Source: Anaerolineae bacterium (GTDB lineage: Bacteria > Chloroflexota > Anaerolineae > Aggregatilineales > Phototrophicaceae). Taken from it: a DNA stretch of 56,002 nucleotides. Position 1 is the stretch's first letter; each line of letters opens with the position of its first letter. Location: the NCBI GenBank assembly GCA_022843745.1, contig JALHNB010000024.1:1-56002 (forward strand). Direction: 5' to 3'. Position numbers and translations under genes: made by a program. Under the pieces are notes generated by a model. The model did not search any database. It was not told where the DNA came from and worked only from the letters and a program-made list of their open reading frames with translations. This document shows positions 27,820 to 55,731 of the stretch, in pieces.

Positions 27820-27848
27820 TTGACACCTTCCGCTAAACACGCTAACAT
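27820..27848 (+). promoter_or_regulatory. Promoter of the aspartokinase leader
   Basis: A consensus -35 TTGACA (27820-27825), 17-bp spacer and -10 TAACAT (27843-27848). Transcription would start near 27855, leaving a leader of about 200 nt that contains the leader peptide and terminator before lysC. Confidence 0.75.
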
Positions 27849-27882
27849 ATTGATCGACAATACAAATTCAGTAGGTTTTTCG

Positions 27883-27969
27883 ATGAAATCTGGCGCAGTT
27901 TTTTCCACTTCCACTATGGGTACTGGAACCTCACATAAAATAATGCGGGGAGATTTCCGTTTGCCCTAA
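27883..27969 (+). CDS. Thr-rich leader peptide of the aspartokinase gene
   Basis: 28 codons from ATG 27883 to TAA 27967-27969. The core reads FSTSTMGTGTS, with four Thr codons among eight positions (residues 9-16), flanked by Ser and Gly; Met occurs at 12 and 21. AGG lies about 8 nt upstream of the ATG. In thrA-type leaders such runs stall the ribosome when charged tRNA-Thr is scarce. Here the downstream gene makes the first committed intermediate of Thr, Met and Lys. The peptide itself needs no other function. Confidence 0.7.
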   Translation: MKSGAVFSTSTMGTGTSHKIMRGDFRLP

Positions 27970-28035
27970 GAAGGGTCGCCAGAACTGAGCATGAAACTCA
28001 AAAGCGTGTAGGAAATCTCCCACACGCTTTTTTAT
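27935..28035 (+). promoter_or_regulatory. Transcription attenuator upstream of lysC
   Basis: Terminator: AAAAGCGTGT (28000-28009) pairs with ACACGCTTTT (28022-28031), plus 3 bp near the loop, then TTATTTTA. Antiterminator: GGGAGATTTCC (27948-27958) is fully complementary to GGAAATCTCCC (28011-28021). Imperfect pairing extends outward from 27935-27947 onto the terminator 3' arm and U-tract (28023-28035). A ribosome stalled on the last Thr codon (27928-27930) would leave the antiterminator strand free. One reaching the stop (27969) would cover it and let the terminator form. Confidence 0.75.
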
Positions 28036-28057
28036 TTTATAGGCCAAGGAGTGAAAC

Positions 28058-29476
28058 ATGAGTCTGATAACGATGAAATTTGGGGGGACATCGGTTGGCA
28101 GCCCAGAGGCGATCACCAATGTCGTGAACATCGTCCAGCGAGAACTGGAAAGCGGCAATCAAGTAATTGTCGTCGTCTCGGCGATGTCGGGTGTGACGGA
28201 TGCCCTTTTAGCAGCCGCCAGCAAAGCAGTACACGGCAATAAATGGGGATACCTCTCCAACGCGCAGAATTTGCGTGACCGCCACGAAGAAACCATTAAC
28301 CGCCTGATTCCCCCCGGCAGCAACCGCGAAAAAACCGTCTCACAAATCAGCAGCCTGCTCGATGAATATGTCCAGCTTTGTCAGGCGATCAATATATTGG
28401 GCGAATTGACACCGCGCATCATGGACGCGATTGTGTCATTTGGGGAGCGCTTGAGCAGCCGCGTCGTGGCCGCAGTGATGCGTGAACGGCATATCAGCGC
28501 AGAGGCTTATGACGCGGGCGAATTTATCATCACCGACAATTCCTTCCAAAACGCCAATCCTCAATGGGACGAAATACAAGTACGTGTGACCAAAAAGCTC
28601 ATTCCTGTGATTGAACGTGGCGAAACACCCGTCATCACAGGCTTTATCGGCGCAACACGTGAAGGCGCGTATACGACACTGGGGCGCGGCGGCAGCGATT
28701 ATAGTGGCGCGATTTTGGCGGCGGCGACGGACAGCGAGGAGTTAATTGTCTGGACGGATGTCGATGGTGTGATGACCACTGACCCGCGCCTGGATGATCG
28801 TGCGCAGGTGTTGCCATACGTCTCATATCAGGAAGTTGGAGAACTTGCCTTCTACGGCGCGAAAGTCCTCCATCCCAAAACCGTGCAGCCCATTCTCGAC
28901 AAAAATATCCCCATGCGTGTGCGCAATACATTTAATCCCGATCACCCTGGAACACTTATTGGCGCAACTGGCGAACCAAGCGCTACAGTTGTCAAAGCCG
29001 TGACGAGCGTGCGTAATGTCGGCCTGCTGACCGTCGGCGGCAGAGGCATGATCGGCGTCCCTGGAATCGCCGGACGCGCATTTTTAACAGCCGCGAAAGC
29101 CGGGGCAAATATTCTGATGATTTCGCAGGCATCGTCGGAGCAGAGTTTCTGCTTTGTCGTCATGGATGATCGGGCACGTGCGGTCAAAAATGCTATTGAA
29201 GACGAATTTGCTCAGGAAATAGAACGTCGCAACATTGATCGCGTCGAACTTATGGACGATGTGGTCATCGTCACCGTCGTCGGTGCGGGGATGCGTGGTA
29301 CGCCCGGTGTGGCTGGGCGCGTCTTCACCATTTTGGGCGAAAATAATGTCAACGTGGTTGCTATCGCCCAGGGCGCATCTGAATGCAGCATTTCGTTTGT
29401 CATTGACGAGGTGAACCTGGAACAAGCCGTCATGCGATTGCACGATCTGGCGTTGGAAACCGTAGAAGTTTTATGA
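28058..29476 (+). CDS. lysC: Aspartate kinase, probably threonine-sensitive
   Basis: 472 residues. The kinase domain (1-300) opens with TMKFGGTSVG (residues 4-13) and contains GERLSSRVVA, TLGRGGSDYSG and DVDGVMTTDPR. Two ACT domains follow (about 310-390 and 390-465) with ISQASSEQSF and IAQGASECSISF, patterns of the ThrA/Thr-sensitive class. It phosphorylates aspartate for Lys, Thr and Met synthesis in the cytosol. AAGGAG precedes the ATG. Expression appears to be set by the Thr-codon attenuator upstream, and activity probably by Thr binding to the ACT domains. Confidence 0.93.
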   Translation: MSLITMKFGGTSVGSPEAITNVVNIVQRELESGNQVIVVVSAMSGVTDALLAAASKAVHGNKWGYLSNAQNLRDRHEETINRLIPPGSNREKTVSQISSLLDEYVQLCQAINILGELTPRIMDAIVSFGERLSSRVVAAVMRERHISAEAYDAGEFIITDNSFQNANPQWDEIQVRVTKKLIPVIERGETPVITGFIGATREGAYTTLGRGGSDYSGAILAAATDSEELIVWTDVDGVMTTDPRLDDRAQVLPYVSYQEVGELAFYGAKVLHPKTVQPILDKNIPMRVRNTFNPDHPGTLIGATGEPSATVVKAVTSVRNVGLLTVGGRGMIGVPGIAGRAFLTAAKAGANILMISQASSEQSFCFVVMDDRARAVKNAIEDEFAQEIERRNIDRVELMDDVVIVTVVGAGMRGTPGVAGRVFTILGENNVNVVAIAQGASECSISFVIDEVNLEQAVMRLHDLALETVEVL

Positions 29477-54667: not shown

Positions 54668-55731
54668 AAGCGGCTGCGCACGGTGAAAATGCGACTGGCT
54701 CCCGCCGCTACCGCCAGCAAAATGACCACACCTTCCCAAAGCGGTTGTTGCAGCGGGTTAACACGCGCAAAGAATAAGATCGTCGGGATCAGACGCAGGG
54801 CTATCGCTCCGGCAATCGTTCCCGCCACGCCACCAGACCCGCCAAAGAGCGATGTGCCACCCAATACGACGACAGCAATGGATTGCAGTGTGAACACCGT
54901 CCCGGTGGTCGCATCGCCAGAGAGCGTTTGCGCGGTCAGGAATAGCCCGCCTATTCCCGCGAAAAAGCCGCCGAGGGCATAAGCGGATACCTTCGCCAGC
55001 TTCACATTGACCCCACTCATATAGGCAGCACCCTCATTGCTGCCAATCGCATAGACCCACATGCCTAGCTGAGAACGGCGGAAGGGAATCCATACGATCA
55101 ACACCACAACAATCAACAAAATAACGGAAGCGGGGATAAAATTGAACAGCGATTGAAAAAATGCGGCGATCCCGGCTGGTTCTTCACCAAACAGCGATTC
55201 CGGCAAAATTTGTGCCACGCGGCGGGTGAGTAAGTCACCGTAAATATCGGGCACATAACCGCCGGGTTGTGGTCGCAGAAACAGCGCGATCCCGCTGTAA
55301 ATGGATGCGGTTGCCAGCGTCACGATAATCGGTTGTAGTCGTCCATAGACCACGATTAAGCCATTGACGAGTCCAGCCAGCGCCGCCACCGCCAGTACAA
55401 TGACGACAACACCAATGATGCTGAGGGCGCTATCGGTTTCCGAGAAAATCGCCGATGCCAGTGAATTACTCAGGCTGATGATCGGCCCTACAGATAGGTC
55501 AATCCCACCCGTGATGACAACAGTCGTCTGAGCCATCCCCGCGAACACCAGCGTCATACTCTGGTTGGCCGTAGATGTAATCACAGGCGGCGTAAAAAAA
55601 CGCTCGTTCAGCGATACCGTGATAGCAAGCAGCGCAAAAAGAATGATGAAGGCTATCCCAACCCGAAAGTTCCGGAGGGCATAGCGCCAAAAACCCGGCA
55701 TGGTCTGATTCGTTGACCTGGTAGAAATCAT
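54652..55731 (-). CDS. Sugar ABC transporter permease, RbsC type (CUT2), first copy
   Basis: 359 residues. Hallmarks are VVITGGIDLSVGPIISLSNSLAS, VNGLIVVYGRLQPIIVTLATASIYSGIALFLRP, AIGSNEGAAYMSGVNVKLAKVSAYALGG and VVLGGTSLFGGSGGVAGTIAGA. It pairs with the downstream permease. Its ATG directly follows the ATPase stop (TAAATG), so translation is tightly coupled. Confidence 0.9.
   Translation of the reverse strand: MISTRSTNQTMPGFWRYALRNFRVGIAFIILFALLAITVSLNERFFTPPVITSTANQSMTLVFAGMAQTTVVITGGIDLSVGPIISLSNSLASAIFSETDSALSIIGVVVIVLAVAALAGLVNGLIVVYGRLQPIIVTLATASIYSGIALFLRPQPGGYVPDIYGDLLTRRVAQILPESLFGEEPAGIAAFFQSLFNFIPASVILLIVVVLIVWIPFRRSQLGMWVYAIGSNEGAAYMSGVNVKLAKVSAYALGGFFAGIGGLFLTAQTLSGDATTGTVFTLQSIAVVVLGGTSLFGGSGGVAGTIAGAIALRLIPTILFFARVNPLQQPLWEGVVILLAVAAGASRIFTVRSRLDTMR

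Follow-up and report, generated by a model that had tools for sequence, protein, structure and literature searches.

A stand-alone aspartokinase gene from the phylum Chloroflexota is preceded by a short open reading frame (ORF) and a terminator, which raises the question of how its transcription is controlled and which amino acids provide the signal. The gene was studied in Anaerolineae bacterium (GCA_022843745.1, contig JALHNB010000024.1). The window, that is the whole stretch of DNA that was analysed, comprises 56,002 nucleotides (positions 1 to 56,002, forward strand), and the genome carrying it (G000) has a size of 7.96 Mb. Judged from sequence, the region ahead of the gene is very likely a ribosome-mediated transcription attenuator that ties aspartokinase expression to the supply of threonine and methionine. 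The leader appears to sense threonine shortage and probably senses methionine shortage too. The methionine input is least certain in the window's own copy, where it depends on one well-placed codon (27916).

Elements upstream of the aspartokinase gene

A promoter-like site, a leader ORF, an antiterminator pairing and an intrinsic terminator were found between 27820 and 28060, all ahead of the aspartokinase gene. The features are given below.

27820-27848, plus strand: sigma-70-type promoter-like site, TTGACA (27820-27825), 17-nt spacer, TAACAT (27843-27848), 10 of 12 consensus matches
27870-27875, plus strand: weak Shine-Dalgarno-like AGTAGG, 7 nt 5' of the leader ATG, read in the sequence
27883-27969, plus strand: leader ORF of 28 codons plus TAA, MKSGAVFSTSTMGTGTSHKIMRGDFRLP, ATG at 27883, stop at 27967-27969
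27907-27930, plus strand: candidate control codons, Thr at 27907, 27913, 27922 and 27928, Met at 27916, read in the sequence
27935-27943, plus strand: possible antiterminator extension ATAAAATAA, able to pair with TTATTTTAT of the U-tract (28032-28040)
27948-27958, plus strand: antiterminator 5' arm GGGAGATTTCC, within the 3' part of the leader ORF, perfect 11-bp complement to 28011-28021
28000-28031, plus strand: intrinsic terminator hairpin, stem 28000-28009 with 28022-28031, MFE -16.6 kcal/mol, z -7.4
28011-28021, plus strand: antiterminator 3' arm GGAAATCTCCC, which is the terminator loop and apex, complement to 27948-27958
28028-28040, plus strand: U-tract TTTTTTATTTTAT, first four bases also closing the terminator stem, read in the sequence
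28046-28051, plus strand: Shine-Dalgarno sequence AAGGAG of the aspartokinase gene, read in the sequence
28058-29476, plus strand: the controlled gene, a monofunctional aspartate kinase of 472 aa with AA_kinase and ACT domains (TIGR00657, PF00696, PF22468)

The earlier note on this DNA had named a consensus promoter, a 28-codon leader, an 11-bp pairing and a strong terminator within 27820-28060, and all of them were recovered at the positions it gave (promoter 10/12, terminator z -7.4). The kinase scored above the TIGR00657 cut-off and slightly under that of PRK06291 (515.5 vs 528 bits). The same genome encodes a second aspartokinase (L106, G000:C7:76964-78358) that is 37% identical, and the region upstream of it was without terminator, Thr/Met leader or Rfam match.

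The Thr/Met cluster of the window leader consists of four Thr and one Met, i.e. five of 12 residues, and was reached by 11 of 2000 shuffles of the window's own region. The leader also has several Ser codons, and a second internal Met codon is found at 27943. The perfect 11-bp complement between the leader ORF and the downstream segment was reached by 10 of 5000 dinucleotide shuffles. The pairing was also stronger than in synonymous recodings (z -2.1), and the 202-nt window leader folded more stably than shuffles (z -2.9). A simple terminator scan called no terminator at the window leader, probably because it restricts loops to at most 8 nt.

Conservation in the window's own family

The window's own family (f1; class Anaerolineae, Chloroflexota) was represented by 98 genomes, 90 of which had an orthologue at E<=1e-120. 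As one match was without gene start, 89 upstream regions were usable. A terminator (score 15 or more) was present in 85 of them, and each of these 85 terminators was preceded by a short ORF ending 19-40 nt 5' of it. According to the earlier note, the proposal should be given up if relatives lacked the leader peptide or the complementary segments; terminator and leader ORF were found to be kept together in 85 of the 89 regions. The four regions without terminator were L007 and those of all three sampled members of genus g14 (L014, L072 and L092). By eye, another gene runs near the aspartokinase start in L007 and L014, and two g14 genomes (G013 and G058) have one TAG inside the aspartokinase match. 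The relatives belong to Anaerolineae, as L031-L034, from MAGs labelled Anaerolineae or Anaerolineaceae, have 150 bases of upstream DNA identical to the f1 loci L036, L002, L018 and L055.

The other signals of the region recurred as well. Among 83 testable leaders, 80 had a promoter-like site at most 120 nt from their start, with an exact TTGACA as -35 element in 76, compared with 77 of 1660 mononucleotide shuffles. Shine-Dalgarno-like 4-mers preceded 86 of the 89 aspartokinases. Before the leader a clear one was seen in just 26 of 83 cases, the majority being without.

A profile built from 30 leaders gave 73 matches in 67 of the 98 f1 genomes, 66 of them directly ahead of the aspartokinase gene. 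Among the seven matches elsewhere, six had E >0.001 and one lay at a contig edge in G054. G054 carries the usual leader as well, and this last match (L212, G054:C234:50-112) is its second, which may be an assembly duplicate. In the 8-Mb genome of the window, the window leader was the sole match at E<=0.1, its own row being part of the profile.

Amino acid composition of the leaders

The 85 f1 leaders contained 455 Thr (19.6%) and 305 Met (13.1%) among 2327 residues after the start, and Ile made up 4.6%. In the other two frames Thr and Met amounted to 2.5% and 0.8%, and to 2.7% and 0.2%, a comparison that does not repeat the choice by which the leader ORF had been taken as the most Thr/Met-rich candidate. 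The shuffles do repeat this choice: at least six Thr plus Met in the best 12 residues were found in 83 of 85 leaders and in 9 of 3400 dinucleotide shuffles. The two leaders below this threshold were the window's own (5) and L046 (4). When all 190 pairs of amino acids were ranked, Met plus Thr came first (8.4 of 12), followed by Gly plus Thr (6.3).

The enrichment is confined to one part of the leader. Thr and Met codons are interleaved 13-22 codons before the leader stop; counted back from the stop, they jointly made up 0.62-0.93 of codons 13-21 and no more than 0.19 of codons 1-12. Thr was encoded by ACT (212), ACC (141), ACG (67) and ACA (35), and the use of all four codons fits selection on the amino acid and not on a DNA motif. 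A DNA or RNA motif instead of codons was ruled out, as the Thr synonyms vary and Thr and Met are rare in the other frames.

The earlier note had described a Thr-codon attenuator. Thr is indeed enriched (455 of 2327 residues), but so is Met (305 of 2327), and threonine alone gives an incomplete description. The window copy is Thr-heavy and Met-poor, which explains why, taken by itself, it looks like a Thr leader. An attenuator that responds only to threonine, with Met codons that are incidental, e.g. filler tolerated between Thr codons, would agree with the four Thr and single Met of the window cluster, with Thr as the single most enriched residue of the f1 leaders, and with a leader from family f21 (L130) that has a Thr run free of Met. 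However, Met falls in the same codon window with up to 0.58 per position (the maximum for Thr being 0.64), every leader has at least one Met at codons 12-22 before the stop, 80 of 85 having two or more, and the Met-Thr pair exceeds the Gly-Thr pair by two residues. We therefore regard incidental Met codons as unlikely. Taken together, the enrichment of Met in this codon window and the SAM riboswitch found at the same gene in family f4 (see below) make threonine plus methionine the most likely signal.

Internal ATG codons could alternatively act as additional starts that keep the short ORF translated, the signal being threonine and Met reflecting initiation. Few leaders have a Shine-Dalgarno-like sequence (26/83), and extra starts might help there. 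Against this, Met is rare in the other frames, and the in-frame Met fraction does not exceed 0.02 per position at codons 23-28 before the stop, where extra starts would also be expected. This makes alternative starts a very improbable explanation, and reading of both Thr and Met codons by the ribosome is preferred.

Terminator and antiterminator

The terminator was analysed in an alignment of 62 of the 85 f1 members, comprising all members outside genus g18 and one third of g18. In this alignment 94.9% of the cells of the stem were paired and seven of 11 pairs had double changes; the covariation score was reached by none of 500 shuffles. The antiterminator was compared in 19 genus representatives. 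The duplex between the arm in the leader and the terminator was more stable within a genus than between genera (-20.7 vs -18.2 kcal/mol, 0 of 10,000 permutations). The antiterminator was also stronger than its own synonymous recodings (Stouffer z -5.98), with eight of 19 below -1.64 and four of 19 above zero; the pairing was no better than the recodings in L004, L012, L019 and L069. When the antiterminator was placed in a fixed register, 70% of the cells were paired and covariation was not significant by genus (476/5000). The register seems to slide between genera.

The earlier note had proposed that an alignment of related leaders should reveal covariation in both helices and conserved Thr codons. 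The terminator covaries and Thr codons are enriched in the f1 leaders, but covariation of the fixed-register antiterminator was not significant. Its suggestion that the antiterminator extends onto the U-tract is correct in terms of complementarity (27935-27943 with 28032-28040). The use of this 9-nt extension is nevertheless doubtful: given its footprint, a ribosome halted at the last Thr codon (27928-27930) would cover part of the segment, which may then be unavailable. To call the attenuator complete was generous, since the protector (1:2) hairpin, which would mask the antiterminator arm on ribosome-free RNA, had, compared with synonymous recodings, a Stouffer value of -3.06 over the 19 genera and is unsupported in the window copy (z +1.6).

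Folding was performed on the assumption that the ribosome covers the RNA up to 15 nt beyond the first A-site base. With a ribosome stalled at the last Thr/Met codon, the antiterminator was part of the predicted MFE structure in 78-81 of 85 leaders while the terminator 3' arm was 2-6 nt long, and this number fell to 10 of 85 once 12 nt of the 3' arm were made. At 4 nt of the 3' arm the early antiterminator was seen in 80 of 85 real leaders and in 592 of 850 synonymous recodings, which means that the peptide sequence by itself accounts for some of the pairing. In the full-length RNA at equilibrium with a stalled ribosome, the terminator was intact in 75 of 85 leaders and broken in nine, the window copy among them. 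A ribosome placed at the stop codon left it intact in 84 of 85. Since the terminator is favoured at equilibrium in most relatives, antitermination, if real, must be kinetic. Kinetic switching is commonly held for classical attenuators.

A terminator that is favoured in equilibrium folds would also suit a small riboswitch-like RNA element, or a protein-controlled terminator, with the ORF left untranslated. We give such readings hardly any weight, as no Rfam family matched (best 20.5 bits vs a gathering score of 59) and the amino acid composition of one frame is conserved while the nucleotides vary. A known Rfam element was ruled out for the window, which had no match at gathering score.

Least probable of all is an arrest peptide or small protein in place of codon-specific stalling. 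The common length of the f1 leaders (near 28-30) and a C-terminal tendency to G-x-FRL would be in line with a conserved peptide, but the mean column identity over 30 aligned leaders was 34%, and the C-terminal resemblance falls where the antiterminator arm lies and can be explained by the RNA. Attenuation by a stalling ribosome, as the earlier note had proposed for a stand-alone aspartokinase in Chloroflexota, is on the other hand well supported as a prediction by the leader ORF and terminator in 85 of 89 regions, the covariation of the terminator and the cognate pairing.

Predicted course of attenuation

The sequence shows the elements, their conservation, the Thr/Met enrichment in one frame and one codon window, the covarying terminator and the cognate pairing of the arms; translation of the leader, stalling, termination, kinetic antitermination and a response to both amino acids are inferred from them, in the following course. 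When tRNA-Thr and tRNA-Met are both charged, the ribosome would read the leader through to the stop codon. There it would cover the antiterminator arm, the terminator would form, and transcription would end near 28035. When either threonine or methionine is short, the ribosome would stall within the run of Thr and Met codons that lies 13-22 codons ahead of the stop. The stall would leave 27948-27958 free to pair with 28011-28021 before the terminator 3' arm exists, and with this pairing formed in the nascent RNA, transcription would continue into the aspartokinase gene. Aspartokinase synthesis would in this way answer to either end product of the homoserine branch, threonine or methionine.

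Occurrence in other families

Outside f1 we scanned 101 upstream regions, two of them repeats; the 99 distinct regions came from 41 families of Anaerolineae, most with one or two loci and a few with uncertain gene starts. Leader and terminator were detected together in 19 of the 99, namely in f3 (7/14), f34 (6/9), f28 (3/4), f18 (2/2) and f21 (1/2, L130, Thr only). No such combination was found among 20 regions from 11 families of the same phylum outside Anaerolineae. In a search of 251 genomes of the phylum the f1 leader profile matched two, both f1, a result that says little on absence because the profile missed f34 genomes with directly visible leaders.

Several loci had similar elements in part. 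In f3, the aspartokinase genes of L153, L155 and L156 have a similar terminator 101-105 nt upstream without a Thr/Met leader. In f61, the region ahead of the L179 aspartokinase has a short ORF ending in GTTTTTTTET and no suitably placed terminator. In the window itself, a short Thr/Met-rich ORF (TASTMTTTPMM) without terminator is found at 55364-55531 on the plus strand; it is the sole one in the window with at least seven Thr/Met of 12, and possibly due to chance.

Other genes of the pathway were searched for Thr/Met ORFs with at least four of 12 residues. None was found before a terminator upstream of the homoserine dehydrogenase gene of G000, and none in ten regions upstream of second aspartokinases, nine of which were without any terminator.

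In some families the orthologue is preceded by a SAM riboswitch (RF00162). By a pattern scan on all regions and Rfam on the pattern hits, it was detected in f4 (3/4; L020, L021 and L022), f42 (1/8; L163), f33 (1/1; L181) and f45 (1/2; L187, further upstream). All six loci lack the Thr/Met leader, and at several orthologue loci a terminator lies downstream of the riboswitch. The SAM riboswitches in these four families independently suggest methionine as a signal for this gene. A further SAM riboswitch (L024, 4275-4376, minus strand) lies about 1.4 kb upstream of an f2 aspartokinase on the same strand; by eye there appears to be a coding region in between, possibly as part of an operon.

In a tree of 37 aspartokinases, the f4 sequences together with one f7 sequence were sister to f1 (98/93), and f3 and f34 were placed elsewhere. 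The Thr/Met label needs one change when it is set against the SAM rows alone. Rows with neither device lie in between, however, and the pattern fits a single ancestral gain followed by losses as well as several gains. RF00162 was present in 41 of 41 genomes searched, G000 having three. An origin of the leader through genome-wide loss of SAM riboswitches was ruled out, as all 41 genomes keep them.

We consider it likely that in at least five families of Anaerolineae a single ribosome reads both Thr and Met codons. The leader would then be a Met-codon attenuator and a natural gate with two inputs where the aspartate pathway begins. Through tRNA charging it would do the job that a SAM riboswitch may perform at the same gene in the neighbouring family, in cells that keep SAM riboswitches elsewhere in the genome.

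Comparison with known systems

The E. coli thr leader, which precedes a gene encoding an aspartokinase, is among the closest known systems: in the thrL-thrABC attenuator, too, a short leader ORF combines Thr codons with codons for a second amino acid. Going by the title of Lynn et al. 1987, its specificity is for threonine and isoleucine. In the present case the second amino acid would be methionine instead of isoleucine, the phylum is a different one, and the controlled gene is a stand-alone aspartokinase and not thrA, which in E. coli encodes an aspartokinase with a fused homoserine dehydrogenase. The Rfam family Thr_leader, which we take to be RF00506, had no match in the window at gathering score and was absent from the five matches at E<=10. 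As this covariance model is unmatched, the window leader is kept apart from the enterobacterial Thr leader family.

For aspartokinase, methionine-related control is known to operate via repressors, SAM riboswitches and enzyme inhibition. The SAM-I riboswitch senses SAM directly, without translation and without a threonine input. Its occurrence in f4, f42, f33 and f45 concerns the same gene and a methionine-related signal, and the window leader itself gave no match to RF00162. A Thr/Met attenuator of aspartokinase might be described in a comparative attenuation survey of around 2010, reportedly by Lopatovskaya and co-workers.

Leader-peptide attenuators outside Proteobacteria have been described for His, Leu, Trp and Ilv, in Actinobacteria (PMC1262725) and for his in Firmicutes (PMC2965389, PMC9413887), as far as the accessible parts of these papers go. 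In the same parts of the actinobacterial study, no conserved RNA structures are reported for Thr or Met operons (PMC1262725). A Thr/Met attenuator of aspartokinase was not found in the accessible portions of the open-access literature, including PMC1262725, PMC4833913, PMC3766115, PMC2965389, PMC7041290, PMC1183508 and PMC9413887, nor was a Met-codon attenuator in the open-access texts searched, to the extent that these were available. The systems in the accessible descriptions represent the same kind of device, discovered by the same comparative logic, but the amino acids sensed are other than threonine and methionine. Leader-peptide attenuation is thus already known as a kind, and the predicted combination of threonine and methionine would be new. 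If the proposed control is correct, it extends leader-peptide attenuation to Chloroflexota, and two unrelated methionine-related devices control one gene in neighbouring families of one class, in which the exchange of RNA regulators becomes directly comparable.
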